In this document: positions 9,431 to 63,085 of the stretch, one piece after another
How positions within the stretch are numbered: the first letter of the stretch is position 1
Layout of the letters: the number at the start of each line of letters is the position of its first letter
Assembly: GCA_026545225.1 (NCBI GenBank)
Contig: CM048847.1
Coordinates: forward strand, 2,294,001 to 2,358,000
Reading direction: 5' to 3'
From: Cornus controversa
Lineage: Eukaryota; Streptophyta; Magnoliopsida; Cornales; Cornaceae
Length of the DNA stretch: 64,000 nt
The notes under the pieces: model-generated
The model's database searches: none
What the model was told of the DNA's origin: nothing
The model's input: the letters and a program-made list of their open reading frames with translations, nothing else
Program-made: the position numbers and the translations under genes

Positions 9431-10300
9431 ATGTTCTTCACTTCTTTTGGATGCTTTGATGGTCTAATTTGGAAAAAAGAAACTTACGATTCTGATTGTG
9501 GCACGACATCTCAAGGAATGGGTTTTTGAATCAGAACAACTCAAACTAAACTTGTTTAAAATCATCGATAGCTTGGGAATTGTTTCTTTTACTTGTCCAA
9601 ATGGTTGAAGTTGGCATAGAGCACTATACGGTTGTGATCATTCATGGGTGCAGCATGGAATTACTCTTTTCGATTCAGGACATCTTGACGGTTGAATTTG
9701 GCATAAAGCAACCTATAATTCTAGGTATGGCATGATTTCACGTGGATTGGACTTTTCGAATCATGACAAGTCAAACGAAACAAGTTTGAAATCGTTCTTG
9801 TCATTCTCTATTCTTCTGGACATCCAGATGGTCAATTCTAGCACAAAGCGCCATACGGCTGTCGTCATGCCTGATTATTGCAAGCAATTGTTCTTTCCGA
9901 CTCAGAACAACTCAAACAAACATGGATGAAGATCGGATTGACATGCTCGTCGTTTCTTTGGGACGCTTTGATGGTTTCATTTAGAAAAAAGCAGCGTAGG
10001 ATTAGTATTATGGCACGACTTCTCTTGGAATGCGGTTTTCGAATCAAAACAACTCAAATGAAACAAGTTTAAATTGGTTGGTAGCTTGCTAATTGTTTCC
10101 TTTAGATGTCCAAACAGTCGAACTTGGAACAAAGCACCATACGGTTGTGATGAAGATCGGATTGACATGTTCGTCACTTCTTTTGGATGCTTTGATGGTC
10201 TAATTTGGAAAAAAGAAACTTACGATTCTGATTATGGCATGAATTCTCAAGAAATGGGTTTTTGAATCAGAACAACTCAAACTAAACTTGTTTAAAATCC

Positions 10301-13300
10301 TCGATAGCTTGGGAATTGTTTCTTTTACTTTTCCAGATGGTTGAAGTTGGCATAGAGCACCATACGGTTGTGATCATTCATGAGTGCAGCAAGGAATTAC
10401 TATTTTTGATTCAGGACGTCCTGATGGTTGAATTTGGCCTAAAGCAATGTATAATTCTAAGTATGGCACGATTTCACGTGGATTGGACTTTTCAAATTAT
10501 GACAAGTCACACGAAACAAGTTCGAAACCGTTCTTGTCATTCTCTATTCTTCTGGACATCCAGATGGTCAATTCTAGCACAAAGCGCCATACGATTGTCG
10601 TCATGCTTGATTATTGCAAGCAATTGTTCTTTCGACTCAGAACAACTCAAACAAACACGGATGAAAATCGGATTGACATGCTCGTCGTTTCCTTGGGACG
10701 CTTTGATGGTTTCATTTAGAAAAAAGCTGCGTACGATTAGTATTATGGCACGACTTCTCTTGGATTGCGGTTTTCAAATCAAAACAACTCAAATGAAACA
10801 AGTTTAAAATGGTTGGTAGCTTGCTAATTGTTTCCTTTAGATGTCCAAACGGTCGAACTTGGAACAAAGCACCATACGGTTGTGATGAAGATCGGATTGA
10901 CATGTTCGTCACTTCTTTTGGATGCTTTGATGGTCTAATTTGGAAAAAAGAAACTTACGATTCTGATTATGGCACGACTTCTCAAGGAATGGGTTTTTGA
11001 ATTAGAACAACTCAAACTAAACTTGTTTAAAATCCTCGATAGCTTGGGAATTGTTTCTTTTACTTTTCCAGATGGTTGAAGTTGGCATAGAGCACCATAC
11101 GGTTGTGATCATTCATGAGTGCAGCAAGGAATTACTATTTTTGATTCAGGACGTCCTGATGGTTGAATTTCGCATAAAGCAATGTATAATTCTAAGTATG
11201 GCACGATTCCACGTGGATTGGACTTTTCGAATCAGGACAAGTCAAATGAAACAAGTTCAAAACCGTTGTTGTCATTCTATATTTTTCTGAACATCCAGAT
11301 GGTCAATTCTAGCACAAAGCGCCATACGGTTGTCGTCATGCCTGATTATTGCAAGCAATTGTTCTTTTCGACTCAGAACAACTCAAACAAACATGGATGA
11401 AGATCGGATCGACATGCTCGTCGTTTCTTTGGACCGCTTTGATGGTTTCATTTAGAAAAAAGCAGCGTACGATTATGATTATGGCACGACTTCTCTTGGA
11501 ATGCGGTTTTCAAATCTAAATAACACAAATGAAACAAGTTTAAAATGGTTGGTAGCTTGCTAATTGTTTCCTTTAGATGTCCAAACGGTCGAACTTGGAA
11601 CAAAGCACCATACGGTTGTGATGAAGATCGGATTGACATGTTCGTCACTTCTTTTGGATGCTTTGATGGTCTAATTTGGAAAAAAGAAACTTACGATTCT
11701 GATTGTGGCACGACTTCTCAAGGAATGGGTTTTTGAATCAGAATAACTCAAACTAAACTTGTTTAAAATCATCGATAGCTTGGGAATTGTTTCTTTTACT
11801 TGTCCAGATGGTTGAAGTTGGCATAGAGCACCATACAGTTGTGATCATTCATGGGTGCAGCATGGAATTACTCTTTTTGATTCAGGACATCCTGACGGTT
11901 GAATTTGGCATAAAGCAACCTATAATTCTAGGTATGGCACGATTTCACGTGGATTGGGACTTTTCGAATCAGGATAAGTCAAACGAAACATGTTCGAAAC
12001 CGTTCTTGTCATTCTCTATTCTTCTGGACATCCAGATTTTCAATTCTAGCACAAAGCGCCATACGGTTGTCGTCATGCCTGATTATTGCAAGCAATTGTT
12101 CTTTCGACTCCGAACAACTCAAACAAACACGGATGAAGATCGGATTGACATGCTCGTCGTTTCTTTGGGACGCTTTGATGGTTTCATTTAGAAAAAAGCA
12201 GCGTACGATTAGTACTATGGCACGACTTCTTTTGGAATGCGGTTTTCAAATCAAAACAACTCAAATGAAACAAGTTTAAAATGGTTGGTAGCTTGCTAAT
12301 TGTTTCCTTTAGATGTCCAAATGGTCGAACTTGGAACAAAGCACCATACGGTTGTGATGAAGATCGGATTGACATGTTCGTCACTTCTATTGGATGCTTT
12401 GATGGTCTAATTTGGAAAAAAGAAACTTTCGATTCTGATTATGGCACGACTTCTCAAGGAATGGCTTTTTGAATTAGAACAACTCAAACTAAACTTGTTT
12501 AAAATCCTCGATAGCTTAGGAATTGTTTCTTTTACTTTTCCAGATGGTTGAAGTTGGCATAGAGCACCATACGGTTGTGATCATTCATGAGTGCAGCAAG
12601 GAATTACTATTTTTGATTCAGGACGTCCTGATGGTTGAATTTGGCATAAAGCAATGTATAATTCTAAGTATGGCACGATTTCATGGGGATTGGGCTTTTC
12701 GAATCAGGACAAGTCAAACGAAACAAGTTCGAAACCGTTGTCCTCATTCTCTATTTTTCTGAACATCCAGATGGTCAATTCTAGCACAAAGCGCCATACG
12801 GTTGTCGTCATGCCTGATTATTGCGAGCAATTGTTCTTTTCGACTCAGAACAACTCAAACAAACATGGATGAAGATCGGATCGACATGCTCGTCGTTTCT
12901 TTGGGACGCTTTGATGGTTTCATTTAGAAAAAAGCAGCGTACGATTAGTATTATGGCACGACTTCTCTTGGAATGCGGTTTTCGAATCAAAACAACTCAA
13001 ATGAAACAAGTTTAAATTGGTTGGTAGCTTGCTAATTGTTTCCTTTAGATGTCCAAACGGTCGAACTTGGAACAAAGCACCATACGGTTGTGATGAAGAT
13101 CGGATTGACATGTTCGTCACTTTTTTTGGATGCTTTGATGGTCTAATTTGGAAAAAAGTAACTTACGATTCTGATTGTGGCACGACTTCTCAAGGAATGG
13201 GTTTTTGAATCAGAACAACTCAAACTAAACTTGTTTAAAATCATCGATAGCTTGGGAATTGTTTCTTTTACTTGTCCAAATGGTTGAAGTTGGCATAGAG

Positions 13301-14715
13301 CACCATACGGTTGTGATCATTCATGGGTGCAGCACGGAATTACTCTTTTCGATTCAGGACATCCTGACGGTTGAATTTGGCATAAAGCAACGTATAATTC
13401 TAGGTATGGCACGATTTTACGTGGATTGGACTTTTCGAATCATGACAAGTCAAACGAAACAAGTTTGAAACCGTTCTTGTCATTCTCTATTCTTCTGGAC
13501 ATCCAGATGGTCAATTCTAGCACAAAGCGCCATACGGTTGTCGTCATGCCTGATTATTGCAAGCAATTGTTCTTTTCGACTCAGAACAACTCAAACAAAC
13601 ATGGATGAAGATCGAATCGACATGCTCGTCGTTTCTTTGGGACGCTTTGATGGTTCCATTTAGAAAAAAGCAGCGTACGATTATGATTATGGCACGACTT
13701 CTCTTGGAATGCGGTTTTCAAATCAAAACAACTCAAATGAAACAAGTTTAAAATGGTTGGTAGCTTGCTAATTGTTTCCTTTAGATGTCCAAACGGTCGA
13801 ACTTGGAACAAAGCACCATACGGTTGTGATGAAGATCGGATTGACATGTTCTTCACTTCTTTTGGATGCTTTGATGGTCTAATTTGGAAAAAAGAAACTT
13901 ACGATTCTGATTGTGGCACGACATCTCAAGGAATGGGTTTTTGAATCAGAACAACTCAAACTAAACTTGTTTAAAATCATCGATAGCTTGGGAATTGTTT
14001 CTTTTACTTGTCCAAATGGTTGAAGTTGGCATAGAGCACCATACGGTTGTGATCATTCATGGGTGCAGCATGGAATTACTCTTTTCGATTCAGGACATCC
14101 TGACGGTTGAATTTGGCATAAAGCAACCTATAATTCTAGGTATGGCATGATTTCACGTGGATTGGACTTTTCGAATCATGACAAGTCAAACGAAACAAGT
14201 TTGAAATCGTTCTTGTCATTCTCTATTCTTCTGGACATCCAGATGGTCAATTCTAGCACAAAGCGCCATACGGCTGTCGTCATGCCTGATTATTGCAAGC
14301 AATTGTTCTTTCCGACTCAGAACAACTCAAACAAACATGGATGAAGATCGGATTGACATGCTCGTCGTTTCTTTGGGACGCTTTGATGGTTTCATTTAGA
14401 AAAAAGCAGCGTAGGATTAGTATTATGGCACGACTTCTCTTGGAATGCGGTTTTCGAATCAAAACAACTCAAATGAAACAAGTTTAAATTGGTTGGTAGC
14501 TTGCTAATTGTTTCCTTTAGATGTCCAAACAGTCGAACTTGGAACAAAGCACCATACGGTTGTGATGAAGATCGGATTGACATGTTCGTCACTTCTTTTG
14601 GATGCTTTGATGGTCTAATTTGGAAAAAAGAAACTTACGATTCTGATTATGGCACGACTTCTCAAGAAATGGGTTTTTGAATCAGAACAACTCAAACTAA
14701 ACTTGTTTAAAATCC
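10301..14715. repeat. 6-unit higher-order repeat, copy 1 (4415 bp)
   Basis: Six consecutive units (starts 10301, 11036, 11772, 12508, 13244 and 13980) form a block repeated almost unchanged in the next 4415 bp. Diagnostic variants include GGATTGCGG in the first unit, CTTTGGACCGC in the second, GATTAGTACTATGG in the third, CATGGGGATTGGGC in the fourth, GTCACTTTTTTTGG at the end of the fourth, and GGCATGATTTCACG in the sixth. Matching at the same offset extends left to about 8510, so part of an earlier copy is also present. One difference between copies is GGCATGAATTCTC near 10237 against GGCACGACTTCTC near 14652. High identity implies recent amplification. Confidence 0.88.
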
Positions 14716-17700
14716 TCGATAGCTTGGGAATTGTTTCTTTTACTTTTCCAGATGGTTGAAGTTGGCATAGAGCACCATACGGTTGTGATCATTCATGAGT
14801 GCAGCAAGGAATTACTATTTTTGATTCAGGACGTCCTGATGGTTGAATTTGGCCTAAAGCAATGTATAATTCTAAGTATGGCACGATTTCACGTGGATTG
14901 GACTTTTCAAATTATGACAAGTCACACGAAACAAGTTCGAAACCGTTCTTGTCATTCTCTATTCTTCTGGACATCCAGATGGTCAATTCTAGCACAAAGC
15001 GCCATACGATTGTCGTCATGCTTGATTATTGCAAGCAATTGTTCTTTCGACTCAGAACAACTCAAACAAACACGGATGAAAATCGGATTGACATGCTCGT
15101 CGTTTCCTTGGGACGCTTTGATGGTTTCATTTAGAAAAAAGCTGCGTACGATTAGTATTATGGCACGACTTCTCTTGGATTGCGGTTTTCAAATCAAAAC
15201 AACTCAAATGAAACAAGTTTAAAATGGTTGGTAGCTTGCTAATTGTTTCCTTTAGATGTCCAAACGGTCGAACTTGGAACAAAGCACCATACGGTTGTGA
15301 TGAAGATCGGATTGACATGTTCGTCACTTCTTTTGGATGCTTTGATGGTCTAATTTGGAAAAAAGAAACTTACGATTCTGATTATGGCACGACTTCTCAA
15401 GGAATGGGTTTTTGAATTAGAACAACTCAAACTAAACTTGTTTAAAATCCTCGATAGCTTGGGAATTGTTTCTTTTACTTTTCCAGATGGTTGAAGTTGG
15501 CATAGAGCACCATACGGTTGTGATCATTCATGAGTGCAGCAAGGAATTACTATTTTTGATTCAGGACGTCCTGATGGTTGAATTTCGCATAAAGCAATGT
15601 ATAATTCTAAGTATGGCACGATTCCACGTGGATTGGACTTTTCGAATCAGGACAAGTCAAACGAAACAAGTTCAAAACCGTTGTTGTCATTCTATATTTT
15701 TCTGAACATCCAGATGGTCAATTCTAGCACAAAGCGCCATACGGTTGTCGTCATGCCTGATTATTGCAAGCAATTGTTCTTTTCGACTCAGAACAACTCA
15801 AACAAACATGGATGAAGATCGGATCGACATGCTCGTCGTTTCTTTGGACCGCTTTGATGGTTTCATTTAGAAAAAAGCAGCGTACGATTATGATTATGGC
15901 ACGACTTATCTTGGAATGCGGTTTTCAAATCTAAATAACACAAATGAAACAAGTTTAAAATGGTTGGTAGCTTGCTAATTGTTTCCTTTAGATGTCCAAA
16001 CGGTCGAACTTGGAACAAAGCACCATACGGTTGTGATGAAGATCGGATTGACATGTTCGTCACTTCTTTTGGATGCTTTGATGGTCTAATTTGGAAAAAA
16101 GAAACTTACGATTCTGATTGTGGCACGACTTCTCAAGGAATGGGTTTTTGAATCAGAATAACTCAAACTAAACTTGTTTAAAATCATCGATAGCTTGGGA
16201 ATTGTTTCTTTTACTTGTCCAGATGGTTGAAGTTGGCATAGAGCACCATACAGTTGTGATCATTCATGGGTGCAGCATGGAATTACTCTTTTTGATTCAG
16301 GACATCCTGACGGTTGAATTTGGCATAAAGCAACCTATAATTCTAGGTATGGCACGATTTCACGTGGATTGGGACTTTTCGAATCAGGATAAGTCAAACG
16401 AAACATGTTCGAAACCGTTCTTGTCATTCTCTATTCTTCTGGACATCCAGATTTTCAATTCTAGCACAAAGCGCCATACGGTTGTCGTCATGCCTGATTA
16501 TTGCAAGCAATTGTTCTTTCGACTCCGAACAACTCAAACAAACACGGATGAAGATCGGATTGACATGCTCGTCGTTTCTTTGGGACGCTTTGATGGTTTC
16601 ATTTAGAAAAAAGCAGCGTACGATTAGTACTATGGCACGACTTCTTTTGGAATGCGGTTTTCAAATCAAAACAACTCAAATGAAACAAGTTTAAAATGGT
16701 TGGTAGCTTGCTAATTGTTTCCTTTAGATGTCCAAATGGTCGAACTTGGAACAAAGCACCATACGGTTGTGATGAAGATCGGATTGACATGTTCGTCACT
16801 TCTATTGGATGCTTTGATGGTCTAATTTGGAAAAAAGAAACTTTCGATTCTGATTATGGCACGACTTCTCAAGGAATGGCTTTTTGAATTAGAACAACTC
16901 AAACTAAACTTGTTTAAAATCCTCGATAGCTTAGGAATTGTTTCTTTTACTTTTCCAGATGGTTGAAGTTGGCATAGAGCACCATACGGTTGTGATCATT
17001 CATGAGTGCAGCAAGGAATTACTATTTTTGATTCAGGACGTCCTGATGGTTGAATTTGGCATAAAGCAATGTATAATTCTAAGTATGGCACGATTTCATG
17101 GGGATTGGGCTTTTCGAATCAGGACAAGTCAAACGAAACAAGTTCGAAACCGTTGTCCTCATTCTCTATTTTTCTGAACATCCAGATGGTCAATTCTAGC
17201 ACAAAGCGCCATACGGTTGTCGTCATGCCTGATTATTGCGAGCAATTGTTCTTTTCGACTCAGAACAACTCAAACAAACATGGATGAAGATCGGATCGAC
17301 ATGCTCGTCGTTTCTTTGGGACGCTTTGATGGTTTCATTTAGAAAAAAGCAGCGTACGATTAGTATTATGGCACGACTTCTCTTGGAATGCGGTTTTCGA
17401 ATCAAAACAACTCAAATGAAACAAGTTTAAATTGGTTGGTAGCTTGCTAATTGTTTCCTTTAGATGTCCAAACGGTCGAACTTGGAACAAAGCACCATAC
17501 GGTTGTGATGAAGATCGGATTGACATGTTCGTCACTTTTTTTGGATGCTTTGATGGTCTAATTTGGAAAAAAGTAACTTACGATTCTGATTGTGGCACGA
17601 CTTCTCAAGGAATGGGTTTTTGAATCAGAACAACTCAAACTAAACTTGTTTAAAATCATCGATAGCTTGGGAATTGTTTCTTTTACTTGTCCAAATGGTT

Positions 17701-19130
17701 GAAGTTGGCATAGAGCACCATACGGTTGTGATCATTCATGGGTGCAGCACGGAATTACTCTTTTCGATTCAGGACATCCTGACGGTTGAATTTGGCATAA
17801 AGCAACGTATAATTCTAGGTATGGCACGATTTTACGTGGATTGGACTTTTCGAATCATGACAAGTCAAACGAAACAAGTTTGAAACCGTTCTTGTCATTC
17901 TCTATTCTTCTGGACATCCAGATGGTCAATTCTAGCACAAAGCGCCATACGGTTGTCGTCATGCCTGATTATTGCAAGCAATTGTTCTTTTCGACTCAGA
18001 ACAACTCAAACAAACATGGATGAAGATCGAATCGACATGCTCGTCGTTTCTTTGGGACGCTTTGATGGTTCCATTTAGAAAAAAACAGCGTACGATTATG
18101 ATTATGGCACGACTTCTCTTGGAATGCGGTTTTCAAATCAAAACAACTCAAATGAAACAAGTTTAAAATGGTTGGTAGCTTGCTAATTGTTTCCTTTAGA
18201 TGTCCAAACGGTCGAACTTGGAACAAAGCACCATACGGTTGTGATGAAGATCGGATTGACATGTTCTTCACTTCTTTTGGATGCTTTGATGGTCTAATTT
18301 GGAAAAAAGAAACTTACGATTCTGATTGTGGCACGACATCTCAAGGAATGGGTTTTTGAATCAGAACAACTCAAACTAAACTTGTTTAAAATCATCGATA
18401 GCTTGGGAATTGTTTCTTTTACTTGTCCAAATGGTTGAAGTTGGCATAGAGCACCATACGGTTGTGATCATTCATGGGTGCAGCATGGAATTACTCTTTT
18501 CGATTCAGGACATCCTGACGGTTGAATTTGGCATAAAGCAACCTATAATTCTAGGTATGGCATGATTTCACGTGGATTGGACTTTTCGAATCATGACAAG
18601 TCAAACGAAACAAGTTTGAAATCGTTCTTGTCATTCTCTATTCTTCTGGACATCCAGATGGTCAATTCTAGCACAAAGCGCCATACGGCTGTCGTCATGC
18701 CTGATTATTGCAAGCAATTGTTCTTTCCGACTCAGAACAACTCAAACAAACATGGATGAAGATCGGATTGACATGCTCGTCGTTTCTTTGGGACGCTTTG
18801 ATGGTTTCATTTAGAAAAAAGCAGCGTAGGATTAGTATTATGGCACGACTTCTCTTGGAATGCGGTTTTCGAATCAAAACAACTCAAATGAAACAAGTTT
18901 AAATTGGTTGGTAGCTTGCTAATTGTTTCCTTTAGATGTCCAAACAGTCGAACTTGGAACAAAGCACCATACGGTTGTGATGAAGATCGGATTGACATGT
19001 TCGTCACTTCTTTTGGATGCTTTGATGGTCTAATTTGGAAAAAAGAAACTTACGATTCTGATTATGGCACGACTTCTCAAGAAATGGGTTTTTGAATCAG
19101 AACAACTCAAACTAAACTTGTTTAAAATCC
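14716..19130. repeat. 6-unit higher-order repeat, copy 2 (4415 bp)
   Basis: The second full copy of the six-unit block, directly abutting the first and carrying the same ordered set of diagnostic variants. A third copy begins at 19131 and is split by the CACTA element after 247 bp. Its remainder at 30957-31444 still carries this repeat's private variants, such as AAAAAGCTGCGTACG and CTTGGATTGCGG. Few private differences separate the copies; one is AAAAAACAGCG near 18080 against AAAAAGCAGCG in the equivalent position of the first copy. After the split unit the six-unit order is not continued, because the next unit at 31445 is chimeric. Confidence 0.88.
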
Positions 19131-19374
19131 TCGATAGCTTGGGAATTGTTTCTTTTACTTTTCCAGATGGTTGAAGTTGGCATAGAGCACCATACGGTTG
19201 TGATCATTCATGAGTGCAGCAAGGAATTACTATTTTTGATTCAGGACGTCCTGATGGTTGAATTTGGCCTAAAGCAATGTATAATTCTAAGTATGGCACG
19301 ATTTCACGTGGATTGGACTTTTCAAATTATGACAAGTCACACGAAACAAGTTCGAAACCGTTCTTGTCATTCTC

Positions 19375-19377
19375 TAT
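19375..19377. repeat. Left target site duplication (TAT)
   Basis: The three bases TAT directly precede the left CACTA terminus and recur directly after the right terminus. Uninterrupted units read TTCTCTATTCTTCTGG at this point, so TAT is the duplicated target. A 3-bp duplication is the rule for CACTA elements. Confidence 0.95.
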
Positions 19378-19408
19378 CACTACAAGAATTTAAAGTATTA
19401 GAGACGGA
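19378..19408. repeat. Left terminal inverted repeat of the CACTA element
   Basis: Begins CACTACAAGAA, identical for 11 bases to the reverse complement of the right end. The next 20 bases or so, including the shared TATTAG and GACGRA, match imperfectly with small gaps. This end is downstream of both element genes. Confidence 0.92.
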
Positions 19409-19790
19409 AAAAATCGTCTCCAAAAATTGCCAAATCTGTCCCAAATGCTTTTTGGGACGACTAATGTCACTGTCCCTGTATGTAGTGTCCCAAAAGCCAT
19501 TTAGGGACGGAGAATTTTAGTTTCGTCCCAAAAGCCATTTAGGGACAGAAGATTTTAGTTTCGTCCCAAATAGTATTCGGGACGGAGGATTTTGGTTTCG
19601 TCCCAAATAGTTTTTGGGACGGAAGACTCAACTTCGTCCCAAATAGTTTTTGGGACAGAAGATTAACTCTGTCCCAAATAGTTTTTGGGACAGAAATAAT
19701 ATTTGGGACGGAGCTAAATCCACCGTCCCCAAATGTATTTGGGACAGAATCAGAATACTTATTTGGGACGGATTAATCCGTGTCAATTAC
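19409..19790. repeat. Left subterminal repeat array, GTCCCAAA/TTTGGGAC
   Basis: This stretch is packed with the motif GTCCCAAA and its reverse complement TTTGGGAC, often paired around a short loop as in CGTCCCAAATAGTTTTTGGG. The pairs recur about every 40-50 bp between roughly 19435 and 19770, and each could form a hairpin. Two nearly identical segments carry GTCCCAAAAGCCATTTAGGG near 19490 and 19527. In En/Spm the TNPA protein binds short subterminal repeats of this kind to pair the two ends; the same role here is inferred from family knowledge. The motifs are CG-containing in a mostly AT-rich element, so they are candidates for methylation control. Confidence 0.85.
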
Positions 19791-20138
19791 AGATTTGATT
19801 TTTGCTAATTCTCCCCTTTTTTTATAATTGATATGTGCACCTGTTATTTCATTCTCTATTCTATCCACATTAAATTTCATATCAACCACTAATAAAAAAA
19901 CTAAACTTTAAATCTAATAAAATTGAAGAACTTAAAGCATCTAAATGATAAGAAAGAGCTTCCAATTCATTCAAGTTCATAATGTTTTTTAAACAATTCA
20001 AGCATCCTGCATATTGAAATAGAAAAAGTTCATTAAAATAGCAAAATTTTCAACCACCTTGACAACCAAAGAACATAGTTTAAATGGAAGCAACAAAAAA
20101 TCTAACCCATCTTAATGTCAATGAAATCAAAACTATTA
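19791..20138. other. Non-coding 3' region of the CACTA element
   Basis: An AT-rich stretch between the subterminal array and the stop codon of the TNPA-like gene. No coding region or repeat is apparent. On the minus strand it would be the 3' untranslated region and terminator of the element transcript; no specific poly(A) site is claimed. Confidence 0.6.
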
Positions 20139-23100
20139 TCAAGTCATTGATATATTGGTTGGTGATTGAGAGTGAACTGGTGGATCTGGACCAAACGTCG
20201 GATTTGGCTGTTGAGAGGGAAATGGTGGCTGCAGATATTGGTAGCTACCAAAAGGTCCAAAAGCAAAGGGTTGTTGCTGCTGTGGGCTGCAAATCGGGGG
20301 TCCACATGCTCCATACACGAGTTGGGAGGACATCTTCATTTGATATTGCAATATACTGTCCATGGATGCCTTCAATTCATTCACGTTCTCCTCCACTTGA
20401 GATAGTTTCCCCTTCACTTCATCACGTTCCCGTTCAGCTCTTTCAAGTCTCCTCTCCAGCTCCACATTTGCCTTCCTCCTACGACTCGAGGAGGACAAAG
20501 ATGAAGCCTTTTTTCCATAACCAAATCCCCGAAAATATCGACCATTTGATGTTCCGAGACGATTCTCCAATATCACCTCATCAATAGGGACTGAATTACT
20601 ACCATCCAAATTACCATCCGAATTAACAGTTGTCTCTAAGTACTCGGCTGTCATATCTTCCTGCATTTTGAGACAAAAATATTTTTATGCATTTTAATTG
20701 AATGGAAGTGAAAGGAAGAAATTTTTTTATATGAGAAACTTGGCAAGTTGATAAGAAGAATACTCAATGAAGAGTTTCTTACCTGTAACAGTAAGAATTC
20801 TTTATTCAAAACAAAAACTAGAAAACTGTGAAATTACTGCAATGCAAAATATTCTCTCAATATTAGGAAGGCTAATGTATGTTACCAGAATTCTTTATAA
20901 GGCAGTTTTTTCTTTTCAGAACTTAAATGCCATTTTGTATTAATCAAGAGTACAATTTTCATAAAAGAATTGGTTGAACTATTTTTGTGACTCTTTTCCG
21001 GTATAAAGAGAAGCAAGTTATTTTTTTTTTGCTACTCTGTTTCTCTTCCCCTTCCCCTCACATCAAGTCAACTTATTTTGACAGGAAATATTTTCTGGGA
21101 ACAATATAGGGAAAAAAAAATTCTCTCTCTCTACTGAAAAAAAAAATCAGTTGTGGCAATATAATCCTTTTTTAAGCTAATAGATTAGACATGAACTATT
21201 TTCACTAGGATTTAAATTAAGTATAAGGCTAAATATTAGGTTTATGTTTAGTCAACTCTACCCAACACAAGGCAGGATCAAATGGCATTCCTTTGAAAAA
21301 ATACACATTAACCGTCTTACTCAAACTATACCAAACGCCAAGAAACAGTTCCTTGCATGAAAGAGAGCCTTGGCTGAACTAAATTGGCTCAGACATGGAG
21401 GACAATAGTTATGCTGATGCATGTACTTTTGTTTATCATAAATGAAACATCTAAAATTAACTTTCCTCAATTTTATGTAAAAATTTATCCACTAAGTTAA
21501 CTGGGAGCATAAGAATCAGATATGATTACCGACAAATACTTCAAATTACTAATCAGATGGATTTTATATATGCTTGTTTAACGAGTTAGTTATATAACAA
21601 CACACCATTTTTGTTTGAGAAATGACTTCAACAAACACAAGCCAAGCCTTAGGAAGTTTTATATGGATCACTTTCCTTAGTTCCACTGGTCCTCTCCTCT
21701 ATAACCAAATAGAAAGCATAGATGTTGGAGGTCCTTTTTGACTTCCAAGGGAAGATAATAATCTTTTCTGCTTTTCTTTTGATCATATAACTATCCATTG
21801 CAAATAGAGTGTTTTATAAAGTTCCTAGCTACATGTTGTGAATGTTGTCGAATACTTTCTATATTTATATAAGAAAAGCCAGAGCTAACACCGGCACCAA
21901 CACAAAGAGCAAACACCAACAGCCCACCAGGGCAGAGTAACATAACAAAAATGACTTTCATGTATATTGTCCAGAATTAGAGAAAATAAACCAATAGAAC
22001 ATGGCTACATTCTATAGAACATGTCTCCAATAGAAAAAATAACTATCTAAAATATGTAGTCTATAATTTAAGTATAAAAAAATAAAAACAAACATGCATA
22101 TATATACTAGCTATGATCTCACACTACCCAAAAAGTAACTATAGATCATTGAACTCCCATCTCTTTAGGTAGAAACAATTAATCATAAGATTTGAGAAAT
22201 GTGATGGTGATACTAGCTATGATCTCACATTACCCACAAGTAAACAACATTTCAATAAAACACAAGAAATATTTTCATAACTCACATATGCTTTGCGAGC
22301 ATCATCATGGATCCATCCAGTCCCTTCCTTAAAATGTGTTTTCTCGTACATTTGAATGGCAGGTCCTGGGCGACGGTGCTCATCGTCTTCATCGCTATGT
22401 TCATCATTTGAAGAGGTTTTCTGCATTTTTTTTATACATCCAATTAGGTATGGACCATATGGTTGTAGAATGAGAAAAAAATAAAAATAAAAACAAAGTA
22501 TTATATATATTACCAATTGATAATGAATTTTGGCATAGGACTTTGACCCAGCACAATGTAACACCTTTAATTTTTTTCTGTTAACTTTGTTTCTGGCGCT
22601 CATTTTCTACAAATGAGAGTAAGAATGAAATATTGAGCAAAAGAAATATATATTTTAAAGTGGCAAAATATATGCAGTAAGGTGATAAATTGAATACCTC
22701 TGTTTGATGTTAAATATTTTATATAATTTTTGGCTCTATAATCTATATGTTTCTCATAAACATTAGACAAAAGGTAAAAAAATAACCTGAAATTTTTCTG
22801 TCTTCCACCTGTCACACATCATCTGCCAATCCTCTGCATCTACACGAGAGTAAGGGTTGCGACGTCCAATCTCTTCCGTCTCGAACTTGTCAAAATGTTC
22901 TTTCAGCCTATACCTGTGCTTCCTAAAAGCAGTGCTCATTGACAGATCTGCAGCCTCCCTAGCTTTTGAATCCATATTGCAATCAACTCCAAATTCCTTC
23001 TATAATTTTTCAAATGAATACACCAGCAAAAATGTTAGTTTGAATTAGAATAAGCATCAATATTCATTAACTTAAGAGTTTGAATAAGTAAAAGTAGTTC

Positions 23101-23680
23101 AAATTAACCAAAAAATACTAATTTTCAAATTGTTTCTACAACTAATTAAGTGTTATAATTAATCATGGTTCAATCATCCAAGCAATTAAATATTACATTG
23201 TGTGCATATGGGGGAGGGAGGGAGAGAACTAGAGAGAGAGAAGTTTATGACCTTTATAATATTGTACAAGGACTGCCTCTCAAATTCTGGGACATCAACC
23301 CAATCCTTATAGTGTAGTGGAATATTTTCACGTGCGATGATCCCAAGCTCAGTCTCCCATATTTCTGAATATGACCTCACTGGTTTCTCATACTCATCAT
23401 CAAACTGAATCGGAACAACCCCCCTATTTTCATCCTGTACTTTATATTTTTTTTTGTTTACAGCTCTACCACGCCTCTTAACTTGGCTTGACGAACCTGA
23501 AATAAAATTCATGAAAATAACATTAAAAAATATTTCAATGAAATTAAGGACCAAGTTTAGTAAATCTAAAGATAAAAAATTATCACCTTCTGCTGCCAAC
23601 TCTGACTGGGACAATGTAGGACTATTTTGAATGAGTTCATGGTTGGACCTCAAGGAGCGACGAGGTGCATTAGACGCCAT
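20139..23680 (-). CDS. TNPA-like protein, Ptta/En/Spm transposase family (6 exons, 433 aa predicted)
   Basis: Predicted exons on the minus strand are 23680-23587, 23496-23252, 22999-22787, 22606-22514, 22420-22286 and 20660-20139. All introns are GT-AG, and the 1302-bp total stays in frame from ATG to stop. Seen in sequence: a basic N-terminus, then RSYSEIWETELGIIARENIP and DWVDVPEFERQSLYNIIK (about residues 70-113), STAFRKHRYRLKEHFDKF (around 128-145), DAEDWQMMCDRWKTEKFQ ending exon 3 at residue 184, KMSARNKVNRKKL and GSKSYAKIHYQL (185-215), and GTSNGRYFRGFGYGKK (about 296-311). A coiled coil rich in E, R and K spans about 325-370, and a Pro/Gln-rich tail 379-433. This order matches the plant Ptta/En/Spm transposase family (Pfam Transposase_24). 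Such proteins bind subterminal repeats and assist excision in the nucleus. The second donor (GTCATA) is weak, so that boundary is the least certain. The last intron is long, about 1.6 kb. Confidence 0.82.
20661..22285 (-). other. Long intron of the TNPA-like gene (about 1.6 kb)
   Basis: Lies between donor TAT|GTGAGT and acceptor TGCAG|GAAGATATG. Joining KAY to EDMTAEYLE keeps frame and gives the order expected for the family. The sequence is AT-rich with no convincing coding region on either strand. It contains a pair of direct repeats of about 25 bp with one mismatch at 22106-22130 and 22212-22236 (core ACTAGCTATGATCTCACA). The other introns of this gene are 90-252 bp, so this one is an outlier and could hide a deleted or captured segment; nothing recognisable was seen in it. 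Confidence 0.65.
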
Positions 23681-24003
23681 AGTAGATTACAGCAAAAAGC
23701 TAATCAAATCTTTTATAGCAGGTCATGAAATAGAAAGGTTAGAGACTACCAACTAAATTGCAGAGCAAAGTATTTAAAATTCCCAAATAGGTTCAGCAAA
23801 CCCAAACTATAACAGCAAAAAAATTGAGGTTTAGTCTTTGACCTTTATATTAGATCTTCCTAAGCATGTATAACCTCAAGCATACCATCATTCATCAAGT
23901 AATAAAAAAACTAGACAATAGCACAATGAAAAAATAGTTCATAATGTGAATACAAAGTAGGCTTATAATAAGTCAAAAAATTACATATTCTAAAACTCAA
24001 ACT
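23681..24003. other. Spacer between the two CACTA genes
   Basis: 323 bp of AT-rich DNA between the transposase stop codon and the start of the TNPA-like gene. No separate promoter is apparent. In maize En/Spm both proteins come from one primary transcript by alternative splicing, so this spacer may be transcribed and spliced rather than act as a promoter; that is an inference. Confidence 0.5.
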
Positions 24004-27000
24004 TCACACATTATCTAAATCAGTATCATCGTCACTTAGTGATTCTTGCTCCTCGTCTAAACTGTCTTCAATGGAGATATCATCATCGTTTTCAAGAAAC
24101 TCAAATTCTTCACATGACTCTTGATTACTTTGTAGTAATATTTCAGCATCAAGACATTCAGCCTCCAAGTTGTCCCTATTCAAAGGGAGTGGATCCATGT
24201 CAACATCAGCCGCCTCAACAACCCTATCCACAATGCATGGTTCGTCCTCTTGATATGCTGTAACACACATTTCATCCTCAAGTCTACTGTCATCCTCCAC
24301 TTCAGGTACATCATACGAGCTTCTATATGTTATATCTTGAATGACCTCCCACGTCCCTCGCAATTTGGTATCTTTGACAAAAAATGCTTGTTTTGCTTGA
24401 TTAGCTAACACAAAAGGCTCATCTCGATACCATTTGCGGTCTACGTTTACACTAGTGAAATAAGTATCTTTGTGAATACCAGTTCTTGTGTTGAACCAAT
24501 CACATTTGAATAGGAGAACCCGTCTATTAAGAGGATATTGTAACTCAATGATATCCGTCAAGACACCATAGAAATCTAAGCCTTCTCCTTTGACTAACAC
24601 ACCGCTATTCTGTGTTGTTCGATTTTGCTCCCTTTCCTTTGTATGGAACCTATTCCCATTTACAATACAAGCAGAATATCTTTTGATCCGAGAATCAGGT
24701 CCACATGCTAATGAATACAGGTCATCGTTAATTGTTGACTTGTCATGATGATGCATTTCCTTTATCTATTGAAAAATTTGTAGAATGTTAAATAAATGGA
24801 AAAAGATACAACACTTAAATCAAATGATAGGGTTGTGAACTACATTATGGACTTACTTTTGTTCCCAACCACTTCGAAAATTCTTTTGCGTGTGCTGATT
24901 GTACATTACGCGTGTTTTTGTCTATAAGTCCTTGCTTGTGTTCACTAAACAATTATGTCATGTTAAGATGTATTTCATAATTTACAAATAGAGTATTAAT
25001 ATATATGTGTGTGTGTGTGTGTGTGACATACAAGGCATATAACTTACAGTGCATATTGCTGGATTTCTGGACAATTATTTAGCACGGTGAATCGAGCCTT
25101 GTGCATACTTGCAATATCCAGCATTTCTAAACTTCCAGACCCTAAAGGACGAACCACTTGCCTTAGCTGTGAAAAAGTAGACCAATTGGTGTCATAGCCT
25201 CCCTCAGAATTTCTTTCTTCTCGATTGAATCGTGTCTCAATCCCTCGAAGAAACTTTGAGCAAAATGTCAGGCATTCATTGTCAACGTAAGCTTCAGCAA
25301 TGGACCCTTCAGGACGTGCTTTATTACGCACGTACAACTTGAGAGTATGCAAAAATCTGCATACACATAATTTTTTTTATAAATAATTAAGTGTAGTGTA
25401 GTGCCTCCCAAAAGAAACTTCCCACAAAAAAGAAAATATATTTTTGTATTAGAAAGATACAACACCTTTCAACAGGGTACATCCATCGATATTGTGCAGG
25501 TCCTCCGATGATAGCCTCGTGCGGCAAATGCACAGCTAAATGCACCATTATGTCAAAAAATGATGGAGGAAATATCATCTCTAACTTGCATATTATAATA
25601 GCAATGTCCCTTTCTAATGCCTCTAAGACATCCACTTTAAGAGTCCGACAACACATCTCCTTGAAGAATAAACCAAGTTCTGTTATCGCATTACAAACAT
25701 CCTCTGCCACAAATCCCCGTATAGCTAGAGGGAGGAGACGTTGTAAGAGAACATGCGAATCATGACTTTTCAATCCAGATATCTTACCTTCATTGACATT
25801 CACACATCGACTTATGTTCGACGCATAACTATCTGGGAACTTCACTGACTTTAACCAATCACACAATTGCCTTTTCTCATCCTTTGACAATGTGTAACGC
25901 GCAGGTGGCATCTCAACTTTCTCACCATTACGCCTAAGATGAAGTTCTTTTCTAATTCCCATTGCTTCTAAATCCATCCGACTTTTAAACGTGTCCTTTG
26001 TTTTTCCTTCAATGTTCATTAGTGTTCCCAACACATTATCGCATATGTTTTTCTCTATGTGCATAATATCCAAGTTGTGTCGTAATAAAAGGGTTCGCCA
26101 ATAAGGCAGTTCAAAGAATATACTCTTCTTTGTCCAGTTAAGTTCTGCCTTCTCGCGAGTCCGCTTCTTCTTATTTGGTCCTTTTCCGAAACTAACCTCG
26201 GGTATGAGATTAAGTTGTTCTAGAATATCATCACCAGTCAACTGCTTCGGTGCCACTCTGTCTTCCTTTTTACCATCAAAATTCCTGTAACGCTTCCTGT
26301 AAGAATGATCAGATGACAAAAATCGACGACCTCCCAAATAACATATCTTCTGTCCGTGACTCAGATAACAAGAACAAGTGTCTTCATTACAATTTGGACA
26401 TGCCAGATAACCCTTTGTCATCCATCCGGATGCCATCGCATAGGCGGGAAAGTCATTTATAGTCCAAATCAATCCCGCATGCATTTTAAAGTTAGATTTA
26501 CTGTAGGCATCATATGTCATCACACCATCCATCCATAATTCTTTTAAGTCATCAATCAATGGTCGTAGGTACACATCAATGTCATTACCAGGCGATTTAG
26601 GACCAGGAATAAGCAATGACATAAACATATATGGTTCTTTCATACATTTCCAAGGTGGCAAGTTGTAAGGCACAATAATTACAGGCCACATACTATAAGC
26701 ATTGCTCATGTTACCAAAAGGATTGAATCCGTCACATGCTAACCCAAGACGAACATTACGAGGATCACCAGCAAACCAACTATGTTTATTATCAAATTCC
26801 TCCCAAGCTTTTGAATCAGCTGGATGTCTCAACACATTTGTCTCTTTGACACGTTTCTCCTTATGCCACCGCATGTCTACGGCTGTATCCCTTGACATAA
26901 ATAATCGTTGAAGCCTTTGTTTCAAAGGGAAGTACCGAAGAACTTTTTGAGGAATCTTCTTACCCTTACCTTCACGAGGCTTATACCTTGACTCACCACA

Positions 27001-27714
27001 TTGTGGACAACATTCCTTACCTTCATTCTCCTTCCAAAATAGAGCACAATCATTTTTACATGCATGGATGGGAACATATCCGAGACCCAAATCACGTATC
27101 AAGCTTTTAGTCTCGTAATGGGACTTTGGCAATGTGTTGTCATCGGGAAGTATATCATCCTTTAGCACCTCGAGCAACATGTTAAAAGATTTGTTGGACC
27201 ATCGGTTTATAACCTTCAAATGAAACAACTTTAATATTGCTGACAATTTAGAGTTTTTTTTACAACCTGGCCACAATTCACATTGTGCATCATTTAACAA
27301 ACTATCAAAACTTTCTCCTCCCAAATCAGCTTGGGGTGAATCTTCTTCTTGTTCTGCATTAGTGAAATTTCCCATTCGTACGCTATCCAATAGCTCAAAT
27401 ACATTGTCTTCATTTCTATCTTCATTGTCGGCATTATTCCCACTAACATTAGGTTCGATATTAACATCACCATTGGTTTGACGGTCCTCCCCGTGCCATA
27501 TCCAATTAGTATACATCTTGTACATTCCATCCTTATATAGATGATTCTCAACCTCTTTAATTGGCCTATACACAGTATTTTTGCATTTACAACACGGACA
27601 TTTAGTTCTACCCATACTGTCTGTATGTCTTTTAGCTAACTGAATGAAGTCTCTTATGCCTTTATAATAAACTCGACTAGCCCTAGTATGATGATGAATC
27701 CAAGACTTGTCCAT
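24004..27714 (-). CDS. TNPD/TNP2-type CACTA transposase (4 exons, 1135 aa predicted)
   Basis: Predicted exons on the minus strand are 27714-25466, 25356-25048, 24944-24857 and 24765-24004. The three introns are 109, 103 and 91 bp, all GT-AG, with donors GTGTTG, GTAAGT and GTAAGT. The 3408-bp join is open from ATG to stop. Domains by recognition: an N-terminal transposase-associated domain (about 1-76, with CPCCKC at 39-44); the TNP2 core (about 215-570), including HACKNDCALFW, the zinc-ribbon-like CCPQCG (236-240), GLACDGFNPFGNMS (324-337) and DIMHIEKNICDN (549-560); a DUF4218-type region (about 690-850) crossing the first intron at MYPVER/FLHTLKLYVRNKARPEGS; and a DUF4216-type region (about 920-1010, RRVLLFKCDWF). 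The C-terminal tail is acidic. The protein would cleave at the CACTA ends in the nucleus. The start is supported by the family-typical MDKSWI opening. Just upstream, a T-run followed by an AG (minus strand, 27720-27719) suggests a spliced non-coding leader. Confidence 0.92.
25006..25025. repeat. (TG)n microsatellite inside a transposase intron
   Basis: Ten TG/GT dinucleotides in the second intron of the transposase gene (intron 24945-25047), next to a short AT run. Likely length-polymorphic, but outside the coding exons. Confidence 0.9.
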
Positions 27715-28415
27715 GTAGCTGGTTCAAAAAAAAAAATTAATTATGGATACAAGTCATTGAAAGTGCAATTCTAGATCTTATGATCAACTTTCTTAGAATT
27801 GCACAGGGTTAGTATAAGGTTTCTATACATGATTTCGAAGTCTTGCATTCAATTTTTGGATGCGTAATTGCGCACCAATAGTTCTTAAAAAGAAAAAGGC
27901 AAATTAAATATGAAAGATAGTGTTACCACCTTACCCCTCTTAACATATATTATTACTTCTCAATAGTTGTGTGCCATCATCTTGAGCTATATGGGGCAGG
28001 GGAATCTTTATTGTAGGTGAGGCAGGTACTCACTCCACATGACAAGTTGACAAACCATGACAAAAAAAGAGCCAATATCTTTTCTTATGATGTGAATCTA
28101 TTGGTATTGTAAACAATACACATATAAGAGAGAACTAAGAGGAAGTGGGGAACATACTGAGCGGACATCTAAACAGCAGCAAGCCAACGAAAAAGAATTC
28201 AATTATGCAGCATTCTTTGGCAGCACGAGTAGCACAGAGAATCCCCGCCAACAACAGTACTTCTAAGTTCCAACCTAATTATATTTCAACCTAGTTCATC
28301 CAAAATAAATCAGACCAATGTAGGGCAAATGCCATATCAAAACTGAGAAAAGAAGTCAGGTCACTGTAGGCACCGGTGATTCAAAGAGACCAGTACTAAA
28401 TGATTATAGATTGAC

Positions 28416-28485
28416 AAAAGAAGTACAATACTCTTAACAAGACTAGACAGAAAAGAAGTACAATACTCTTAACAAGGCTAGACAG
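28416..28485. repeat. 35-bp tandem duplication
   Basis: Two adjacent 35-bp copies starting AAAAGAAGTACAATACTC, differing at a single base (AAGACTAG against AAGGCTAG). The single mismatch indicates a recent duplication. No function is apparent. Confidence 0.9.
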
Positions 28486-28921
28486 GAAGAACAGAGTTGA
28501 CAAACATTTTTTCAGAAGATAGATTGAAGAAAGACTTCCAAGCATTAAACATCCTGAAAACTGAACTCCATGATCTGCATTGTAAATCAAAAACCAGCAT
28601 ATTTCCCCATTCAAATCAACTAGTTTGACATATTAGCCTTTTTTATGGTATATATTAGTCTACTATCTCTAGATGCATCCATAACATATTCCTTTATCAT
28701 TTATTGCTATGTTTTTATTTCAGTTGACTAGAATATAGAAGTGCAATTGAGAGACAAAAGATAACTATTCCAAGCAAAGGAGTGAGTGTGAGAGACATCC
28801 GAGAGGTGCACATGGACTTTATATGATGGTCTGGCATAGCCAAAGATATCAAAGACATAGAAATCCCAAAATAGATATAAAGAAAAAGGAAAAAAGCAAG
28901 AATAACTCTATCACTCACCTT

Positions 28922-28960
28922 TACTGTCAAGGAAGATGAGGTTTTTAAGGCCTCCTGTTC
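28922..28960 (-). other. Exon-like segment in the leader region (possible captured or non-coding exon)
   Basis: On the minus strand a segment translating as EALKTSSSLTVK is bordered by ...GAACAG on its 5' side and the strong donor-like GTGAGTGATAG on its 3' side. It could be a short exon of the element's leader or of a captured host gene. No family was recognised, and there is no independent evidence of expression. Confidence 0.25.
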
Positions 28961-29604
28961 ATAAATGTCCATGCAAAGAAAAAAATAAATAATTAGACAT
29001 AGAGTTGCAATCTTACAGAATATATACCATGACATTGTATTTGAAATAGATCAAAAGGTTCAAGGTTATTCATTTCTGATGTTTCAAAGCAGTTGCCATT
29101 TGCCAATTAAGAATCGTAGAACTAGTAAAAGGTTATGAAACTAAAGCTCATTCTGCAGCTTAGTCTACATCAATCTTAAAATACTATAATAGAACATATA
29201 GCATAAAATACCTTTGACTATTACTATAATAACCAACTTTAATTACAGAGGAAAAGCAAAGATAAACAAGTAAACTTATAAACATTCAGATTCACCAATT
29301 ATTAGTCCATAAAATCAAGTAATAACAAAGGTTAAAATGAAGAAAACAGAATATTAACAATAGTAACCATAAAGACCCAGTATTTTATGATGTAACAAAA
29401 TAATGGAAAGCTAATTTTTAGCTAAACTATCAACCAACTTTAGCATTTCTAAAGACCATTTACATCATTACAGTATTTCCATAAAGCATTTGCAGTATTT
29501 GCCACTATAATATAAATGCAAAAGAAAAAATAACAAACAAATAATAAATCAAAAAATGAATACAAAATAGAGAGAGAAAAATGTTTATATAGATATATAA
29601 GAAT

Positions 29605-29805
29605 CTGAAATTTTGAGAAATTAATAAGGTTGTGAGAAGGAATGGAATGAGTGAGAGACTGAGAAGCAGAGAATGAAGTTTTGTGTAGTTTGATGGGAAG
29701 AGGGAAAACCCTGGTATTGGACAAATAAAAGTGTAAAAGGGCATTGAAATTTTGATGTTGAGGTGAGTGAAGAAGACATGAGAGAGAATCCAACGAAGTA
29801 GACAT
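29605..29805 (-). other. Possible captured host-gene 5' fragment with transit-peptide-like sequence
   Basis: On the minus strand an ATG at 29805 opens a frame beginning MSTSLDSLSCLLHSPQHQNF. Over its first 67 residues or so it is rich in Ser, Leu, His and Pro with very few acidic residues, then runs into low-complexity hydrophobic sequence that is probably not coding. The composition resembles an organelle transit peptide. CACTA elements often carry host-gene fragments, so this is a candidate, but AT-rich leader DNA can produce such a frame by chance and no homologue was recognised. Confidence 0.22.
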
Positions 29806-29886
29806 TTAGAAGGATTGTGTTTGTAGAAGAGACATCTTGTTTTGGGTCGGCCATGGCTTTGGATAATCTGAGAGTCATTCAGAGAG

Positions 29887-29893
<7 letters not shown>

Positions 29894-29936
<43 letters not shown>
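29894..29936. repeat. (TA)n microsatellite
   Basis: A pure AT/TA run of 43 bases in the element's leader region. Likely length-variable and prone to assembly error. Confidence 0.95.
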
Positions 29937-29940
<4 letters not shown>

Positions 29941-30537
29941 AACAAATAATATTTTTCAGTCCGCACGAGGACAGCCAACCGAAAGTGCATTCACAAAGTA
30001 AAAAAATACGAGACCCATCATTATGTAGTTATTCATACCCAAAATCATGTACAATCAAATGCATAGTGTCATACAAAAATGCATATAAACAAGAAATACG
30101 AGTAAGGAGTACAAGAAAATATCTAATGATAAAACACAAGAGAAGCAAACCCAAAGGTATTTCATTGATTTCAAGCCCTATGAAGCACAAATTAGGGCTA
30201 TGTAAAAAAATATGTGTAAGGAGTACAAGAAACCCTCTGTTTCCGTTTTTCATAGATTAGCCTACAAATTAGGGCTTTGTTAATTTCAAGTCCTGTGTGT
30301 TTGTGAATAGAAAATAGGCGAGAGACGAACAAAGAGAAACAAACTCACCTGATGTTGACGGTGATGCGGTGCGATGAAGCTGATTATGGGTTTGGAATAA
30401 ATGGATCTTCAGGAATAGCTTGAAAGGCTTTTCGCTGTGGTCGTTCTTCACAGATTGAGAGAAGAAATTGAAAGAAGAAGTGATAATCAAGTGGGGTTGC
30501 AGAGACAAACGAGAGAAACGGCGTTGTTTAGGGTTGC

Positions 30538-30544
<7 letters not shown>

Positions 30545-30576
<32 letters not shown>
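30545..30576. repeat. (GA)n microsatellite, (CT)n on the coding strand
   Basis: About 16 GA dinucleotides. Read on the minus strand it is a CT tract, a feature often found in plant 5' leaders and core promoters, located close to the expected transcription start of the element. The regulatory role is speculative. Confidence 0.9.
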
Positions 30577-30579
<3 letters not shown>

Positions 30580-30714
30580 ACTCATGTGGGTTTGCAGAGA
30601 GAGGGGAAGATGAGAGATCGTGGGTTAATAAAATCAAAACGATGTCGTAGAATTATTTTAAGCCTCTGCATTTGTGACATCTGTCCATCTTGAAAAATGT
30701 AAAAAAATAAGAAT

Positions 30715-30922
30715 TAGGGATGAAACTTTTTCTGTCCCTAAAGTTGTAGTATCTGTCCCAAAATCTCCTCCCGCAAAATTTTTCCCTCGCAAATGTTCGC
30801 GGGTTCAGATTTTCGCACCAAAACCATTACAGCGCCTAATTTTTGGGTTATTTGGGACCACGTGAGATTTGGCGTCCCAAAAACATTACTTCCAGGGACG
30901 GTTATCCATCCGTCTCTAATTG
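30715..30922. repeat. Right subterminal motifs of the CACTA element
   Basis: Contains the same GTCCC/GGGAC core as the left array, in both orientations: CTGTCCCTAAAG and CTGTCCCAAAATC near 30740-30770, TTTGGGACC and CGTCCCAAAAAC near 30850-30885, and GGGACGG near 30895. The motifs are sparser and less regular than on the left, so the element ends are asymmetric. They are expected binding sites for the TNPA-like protein by family analogy. Confidence 0.75.
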
Positions 30923-30953
30923 TTCGTCCCTAATATTAAAATTTCTTGTAGTG
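30923..30953. repeat. Right terminal inverted repeat of the CACTA element
   Basis: Ends in TTCTTGTAGTG, the exact reverse complement of the first 11 bases of the left end, with an imperfect match continuing through TATTAG and GACGAA. This is the 5' end relative to both element genes. Confidence 0.92.
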
Positions 30954-30956
30954 TAT
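30954..30956. repeat. Right target site duplication (TAT)
   Basis: TAT directly follows the right CACTA terminus and matches the three bases before the left terminus. The satellite continues with TCTTCTGGACATCC exactly as in uninterrupted units. Confidence 0.95.
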
Positions 30957-31444
30957 TCTTCTGGACATCCAGATGGTCAATTCTAGCACAAAGCGCCATA
31001 CGATTGTCGTCATGCTTGATTATTGCAAGCAATTGTTCTTTCGACTCAGAACAACTCAAACAAACACGGATGAAAATCGGATTGACATGCTCGTCGTTTC
31101 CTTGGGACGCTTTGATGGTTTCATTTAGAAAAAAGCTGCGTACGATTAGTATTATGGCACGACTTCTCTTGGATTGCGGTTTTCAAATCAAAACAACTCA
31201 AATGAAACAAGTTTAAAATGGTTGGTAGCTTGCTAATTGTTTCCTTTAGATGTCCAAACGGTCGAACTTGGAACAAAGCACCATACGGTTGTGATGAAGA
31301 TCGGATTGACATGTTCGTCACTTCTTTTGGATGCTTTGATGGTCTAATTTGGAAAAAAGAAACTTACGATTCTGATTATGGCACGACTTCTCAAGGAATG
31401 GGTTTTTGAATTAGAACAACTGAAACTAAACTTGTTTAAAATCC

Positions 31445-62349: not shown

Positions 62350-63085
62350 TCGATAGCTTGGGAATTGTTTCTTTTACTTTTCCAGGTGGTTGAAGTTGGC
62401 ATAGAGCACCATACGGTTGTGATCATGCATGAGTGCAGCATGGAATTACTCTTTTCGATTCAAGACGTCCTGATGGTTGAATTTGGCATAAAGCAACGTA
62501 TAATTCTAGGTATGGCACGATTTCATGTGGATTGGGACTTTTCGAATCAGGATAAGTCAAACGAAACAAGTTCAAAGCCGTTGTTGTAATTCTCTATTCT
62601 TCTGGAAATCCAGATGGTCAATTCTAGCACAAAGCGCCATACGGTTGTCGTCATGCCTGATTATTGCAAGCAATTGTTCTTTCGACTCAGAACAACTCAA
62701 ACAAACACGGATGAAGATCGGATTGACATGCTCGTCATTTCTTTGGGACGCTTTGATGGTTTCATTTAGAAAAAAGCAGTGTACGATTAGTATTATGGCA
62801 CGACTTCTCTTGCAATGCGGTTTTCAAATCAAAACAACTCAAATGAAACAAGTTTAAAATGGTTGGTAGCTTGCTAATTGTTTCCTTTAGATGTCCAAAC
62901 GGTCGAACTTGGAACAAAGCACCATACGGTTGTGATGAAGATCGGATTGACATGTTCGTCACTTCTTTTGGATGCTTTGATGGTCTAATTTGGAAAAAAG
63001 AAACTTACGATTCTGATTATGGCACGACTTCTCAAGGAATGGGTTTTTGAATCAGAATAACTCAAACTAAACTTGTTTAAAATCA
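62350..63085. repeat. Three-way chimeric satellite unit
   Basis: This unit starts as trimer type a (CCAGGTGGTTG, TTCTGGAAATCC near 62600). It becomes type b between about 62609 and 62707 (AACACGGATG, GCTCGTCATTTC, GCAGTGTACG, CTTGCAATGCGG, CTTGGAACAAAGC). It ends as type c after about 62913, with GAATCAGAATAACTC and AAATCATCG. A type a unit follows at 63086, so one unit stands where three are expected. The exchange removed two units' worth of sequence while keeping the register. Confidence 0.82.

Follow-up and report, generated by a model that had tools for sequence, protein, structure and literature searches.

An apparently complete CACTA transposon inside a 736-bp satellite array of Cornus controversa

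Introduction

Among described transposons, the nearest counterparts of the element reported here are those of CDA type 3, i.e., CACTA elements with Transposase_24 in ORF2, for which the available text of the source names Chenopodium iljinii, Caspar AY661558-1, and the Arabidopsis elements Taiki and Taimi (PMC8978399). In Spm, according to the excerpt available, one transcript is alternatively spliced (PMC1636069). Like maize En/Spm and the CDA type 3 elements, the element in Cornus controversa has CACTA ends, a 3-bp duplication, and subterminal repeats, and like CDA type 3 it carries TAD, Transposase_21, DUF4218, and DUF4216 in gene 1 and Transposase_24 in gene 2 (PMC8978399, as excerpted). 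Unlike CDA type 3 elements, it has its own subfamily sequence and resides in a 736-bp higher-order satellite.

Satellite arrays mostly come up as places where retroelements reside, and invasion through retroelements is treated in the available part of a review (PMC12477314). A first-pass annotation of the present DNA had presented satellite as foreign to CACTA elements, which is too strong given three reports, each consulted in excerpt. In common bean, pvCACTA1 comprises more than 12,000 elements concentrated at chromosome ends; it shares with our element a 3-bp AT-only duplication and perhaps a chromosome-end location, but its members are short and noncoding, and the word satellite is absent from the text of the paper as available (PMC4938662). 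In rye, survey reads put CACTA sequences at 5.41% and 3.47% of the junction DNA of the subtelomeric pSc200 and pSc250 arrays, compared with 5.58% genome-wide, and hence they are not enriched at those junctions; here, too, CACTA sequence adjoins tandem satellite arrays, and an intact element within an array is not described in the available text (PMC4857426). In rice, CACTA elements lie within the region of centromere 8, where they make up ~2.6 to 2.75% of the sequence, but they were counted region-wide (32, 9, and 24 copies) and not placed in satellite (PMC4387472). A limited word search of the open-access literature, as excerpted, turned up no account of an intact CACTA element lying within such an array, which does not show that there is none. 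The CACTA kind is well known, and what we describe is an ordinary, well-preserved element; the less usual part is that an undamaged copy lies inside satellite DNA.

Results and Discussion

A CACTA element with exact ends interrupts one satellite monomer

The window, i.e., the whole 64-kb stretch of DNA that was analyzed (C3:2294001-2358000 of an assembly of 771.7 Mb in 61 contigs), consists, outside the element, of a 736-bp tandem repeat with higher-order structure. The element itself is a CACTA (En/Spm-type) DNA transposon of 11,576 bp with its genes on the minus strand, which makes the right end its 5' end (Table 1). Its boundaries are exact, with TAT followed directly by CACTACAAGAA at 19378 and TTCTTGTAGTG followed directly by TAT at 30953, and CACTACAAGAA, the CACTA-type start of the terminal inverted repeat, occurs once per strand in the window. 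The same array also contains the empty site: the flanks, joined with a single TAT, are identical to the monomers at 10428 and 14843 (240 of 240 bp) and 99.6% identical to the monomer at 34518, and the 736-bp satellite spacing runs on across the insertion site. The outer 680 bp of the element hold 17 copies of the subterminal motif GTCCCAAA/TTTGGGAC, and the remaining 10,896 bp hold none. The matching ends, TAT duplication, and subterminal motif arrays listed in the first-pass annotation are thus borne out, and with Transposase_21 and a second gene the element shows the five features examined for CACTA (En/Spm) membership, its subterminal repeats being both direct and inverted. Three ORFs in the long 5' region matched no Pfam family at the cutoff, and a search of positions 8900 to 31600 against Rfam at the gathering threshold gave zero matches.

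Table 1 Features of the element, its host array, and relatives with both ends read (window positions unless a contig is given)
Feature	Position	Strand	Description
6-unit (4415-bp) higher-order repeat tract of the 736-bp satellite	8956..31421	+	~2.5 copies, interrupted by the element
Target site duplication, left copy	19375..19377		TAT
Whole CACTA element	19378..30953	-	Minus-strand genes
Left terminal inverted repeat	19378..19407	+	Perfect over 11 bp, imperfect over ~30 bp
Left subterminal array	19438..19770		14 GTCCCAAA/TTTGGGAC copies (left 420 bp), partly as a 37- to 38-bp tandem repeat
Gene 2, predicted Transposase_24 (PF03004) protein	20139..23680	-	433 aa; exons 23680-23587, 23496-23252, 22999-22787, 22606-22514, 22420-22286, 20660-20139
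Gene 1, predicted TNP2-type transposase	24004..27714	-	1135 aa; exons 27714-25466, 25356-25048, 24944-24857, 24765-24004
Long 5' region	27715..30700	-	Presumed promoter and leader (putative role)
Right subterminal motifs	30755..30881		3 GTCCCAAA/TTTGGGAC copies (right 260 bp)
Right terminal inverted repeat	30924..30953	-	
Target site duplication, right copy	30954..30956		TAT
Relative on C2	C2:33440561-33452304		11,744 bp; exact terminal 9-mers, TAT duplication, broken transposase
Relative on C4	C4:26148795-26150869		~2.1 kb; one altered terminus, flanked by a TAT duplication
Relative on C2	C2:70325781-70329228		~3.4 kb; both terminal 9-mers exact, without matching duplication
Relative on C3	C3:28533002-28538579		5.6 kb; both termini altered, no clear duplication

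We consider it very probable that a full-length, coding-complete CACTA element inserted by ordinary cut-and-paste transposition at a TAT in one 736-bp monomer; the receiving array would have been the large satellite near the start of C3. Satellites are hard to assemble, and the element might in principle have been joined into the array from elsewhere, but this is exceedingly improbable: both junctions coincide precisely with the ends of the element and show a 3-bp duplication, the satellite phase is unbroken, and nothing exceeds ~97% identity elsewhere among the candidates scored.

Both predicted genes are open

The predicted exons of genes 1 and 2 join in frame through GT-AG introns, as the first-pass annotation had proposed, and the only stop in gene 1 is the terminal one. 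All four aligned relatives keep the start and stop of gene 1 as well as its six splice dinucleotides; wrong joins or broken frames, which the first-pass annotation had named as evidence against its gene models, did not appear in this alignment. Four Pfam domains, Transpos_assoc, Transposase_21, DUF4218, and DUF4216, each score over the curated cutoff in gene 1, with Transposase_21 nearly full-length (profile positions 2 to 211 of 213; E = 1.1e-103). DUF4218 is split by intron 1, scoring 96.2 and 68.8 bits apart and 172.4 bits joined, and because it becomes whole after splicing, the intron 1 join is supported. In gene 2, the Transposase_24 domain scores 24.9 bits in a single exon-bearing ORF, below the cutoff of 28.7, and 52.7 bits in the spliced protein (E = 6.7e-14); exons 1 to 6 are matched full-length in four copies on C4 (97.2 to 100%) and in the C2 copy (91 to 99%). 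What the sequence offers on the catalytic acidic triad of an autonomous element is the nearly full-length Transposase_21 match; solved structures searched by sequence with gene 1 gave no match. Judged from the sequence, both frames are open with consistent splice sites, as in an autonomous CACTA element. By analogy with the family, the gene 1 product would be a TNPD/TNP2-like transposase acting on the CACTA ends, and the gene 2 product would be its TNPA-like partner, with the subterminal GTCCCAAA motifs as binding sites. If it is expressed, the element would be a transposase source residing in satellite DNA.

The closest relatives are diverged and broken

We searched the genome with the left end, the right end, the transposase region, and the gene 2 region, scoring 27 of 27, 17 of 17, 40 of 319, and 40 of 59 candidates, respectively. 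No other locus among those scored exceeded ~97% identity to the window copy beyond a fragment, the best values being 97% over the left 4.4 kb, 96% for the transposase, and 92% for the right end, and hence copy number gives no indication of a recent burst. For transposase DNA, the closest loci among the 40 of 319 candidates scored were C4:5.88 Mb and C2:33.44 Mb (96% each), C6:22.44 Mb (94%), and C4:47.73 Mb (88%); the next matches were C10:1.29 Mb at 87% and then others at no more than 81%. The transposases of all four closest relatives are broken, with one stop and a 1-base deletion at C4:5.88, four premature stops at C2:33.44, nine stops and frameshifts at C6:22.44, and one stop at C4:47.73. 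The many equally divergent old copies that the first-pass annotation had named as contrary evidence did not appear; the close relatives read were broken and not equally intact. With the first exon as a protein query, 61 matches were listed (60 of 888 candidates scored), of which 13, including the window copy, cover residues 1 to at least 747 without a stop; the other 12 share no more than 82% protein identity with it. By these alignments, no other copy read from the close group is intact, but within the superfamily in the genome the window copy is not alone in this.

Both ends were read in five copies (Table 1), and the TAT duplication is present in three of them, the window element, the 11,744-bp copy on C2, and the copy on C4. 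The 11,744-bp copy is colinear with the window element, yet with unmatched stretches; its region upstream of the transposase matches the window element only at the end, so members of the subfamily look mosaic. The shorter relatives on C3, C4, and C2 (5.6, 2.1, and 3.4 kb) are likely nonautonomous derivatives, and comparison of the C3 copy with the whole element matched no transposase-gene piece longer than 150 bp.

Five loci at C4:7.36-8.79 Mb match the gene 2 region at 96 to 97%. The four that were read are segmental duplicates, 98.5 to 99.0% alike over 12.2 to 14.7 kb (three comparisons to one), each with the element's left end and an internal duplication of ~410 bp. The exact right-terminus string CTTGTAGTG was not found in the 18.5 kb read of each of the four, a search that an altered terminus could escape. 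We rejected a recent burst as the source of these 96 to 97% copies, since the four read are parts of one segmental duplication. Coamplification with the satellite was likewise rejected: no second array copy was present among the scored candidates, and the adjoining repeat units are empty.

The transposase lineage has been under constraint

The silent divergence of the window transposase from the nearest three relatives is 0.083 to 0.094; in pairwise comparison with all four, the replacing rate is 0.23 to 0.55 times the silent rate. We then counted the changes unique to each lineage, taking stops as replacing and dropping codons that were gapped in any of the five rows or had more than one base changed. 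The window copy has 14 silent and 11 replacing unique changes, the C2 copy has 7 and 10, C4:5.88 has 7 and 18, C6 has 14 and 59, and C4:47.73 has 97 and 74; 11 silent and 7 replacing changes are common to C2 and C4:5.88. The contrast between the window and C6 copies is significant (Fisher P = 0.0008), and, with kappa set from 1 to 6, the window copy falls below the neutral expectation at P values between 8e-5 and 0.0035. These counts indicate that constraint acts on the window branch and not on the C6 branch. Since the window copy has 14 silent and 11 replacing changes compared with 14 and 59 in the decayed C6 copy, its lineage remained functional until recently, a signature that is no proof of present activity, although the element may still be able to move.

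Neighboring repeats bound the age of the insertion

Left of the element, copies 1 and 2 of the 4415-bp higher-order repeat show 7 differences. The interrupted copy differs from the element-free copy 2 at 7 positions in 2,207 bp (three monomers). One of these is at 18085 and the other six lie between 31422 and 31571, beyond which the array is of another type, the next monomer showing 11 differences. If counting stops at the first mismatch to the right of the element, a cutoff chosen after the fact, only 1 difference falls in 2,057 bp. Because copy 2 lacks the element, the common ancestor of these two copies predates the insertion, barring later sequence exchange. The empty site kept in neighboring repeats thus serves as a clock, in which repeat copies bound the insertion age. 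At an assumed substitution rate of ~5e-9 per site and year, a divergence of 0.3% would correspond to ~0.3 million years, as an order of magnitude only. Unless gene conversion intervened, the insertion is probably young, and the recent insertion claimed in the first-pass annotation agrees with both the flanking repeats and the selection signature. The insertion also tags one monomer for tracking array turnover.

Gene conversion is the remaining alternative, in which the insertion is old, the flanks have been kept alike, and the frames are open by luck. Satellite repeats do exchange sequence, and many monomers in the window have a near-identical partner, with nearest-neighbor differences often 0 to 3. 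Long neutral residence, however, should have broken the window frames, and the C6 copy, with 14 unique silent changes like the window copy, has accumulated 59 replacing changes, nine stops, and frameshifts, whereas the window copy has 11 replacing changes and is unbroken. We therefore regard an old insertion as improbable.

The satellite as a probable chance landing place

Most likely, the satellite was a chance, harmless landing place for the element and not a target. That this CACTA lineage inserts preferentially into satellite arrays or finds shelter in them, with the window copy as the surviving source for dependent derivatives, is suggested by the position of the only open transposase of the close group in satellite and by the existence of shorter relatives with both end regions at C3:28.53 Mb, C4:26.15 Mb, and C2:70.33 Mb. 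However, the C3 satellite region holds only 1 of the 61 listed transposase matches (60 of 888 candidates scored), and no such satellite flanks the four C4 copies, C3:28.53, C6:22.41, or C2:33.44, the loci compared in this respect. Moreover, in their end regions the shorter relatives show 86 to 95% identity to the window copy, and hence they are not its recent offspring. We give this reading little credence. The idea that the subfamily has its last functional source copy in the shelter of the satellite block is doubtful; if sheltering did occur, the element would escape selection against near-gene insertion, stay coding-complete, and could supply transposase to the shortened relatives.

The host satellite array

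The 6-unit tract stops ~470 bp to the right of the element, and a second layer, a 3-unit (2207-bp) higher-order tract, lies at the right of the window (51442-62476); within each tract, the copies are near-identical. A literature search by words for a 736-bp satellite yielded no plant title. Division of the satellite into four units of 184 bp was rejected, since autocorrelation gave it no support. We also rejected the element as a barrier to repeat homogenization, because many other breakpoints show similarity no higher than that across the insertion: it was as low or lower at 11 of 48 to 25 of 48 breakpoints over six settings and at 16 of 60 in the first. Exact matches to a conserved satellite 24-mer number 3595 forward and 2522 reverse genome-wide, and each of the 100 that were listed lies on C3. 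Related monomers listed on C3 (37 of 1950 candidates scored) extend from ~0.81 to 2.66 Mb, in minus orientation at 0.81 to 1.48 Mb and in plus orientation at 1.99 to 2.66 Mb, which may reflect either an inversion or two arrays.
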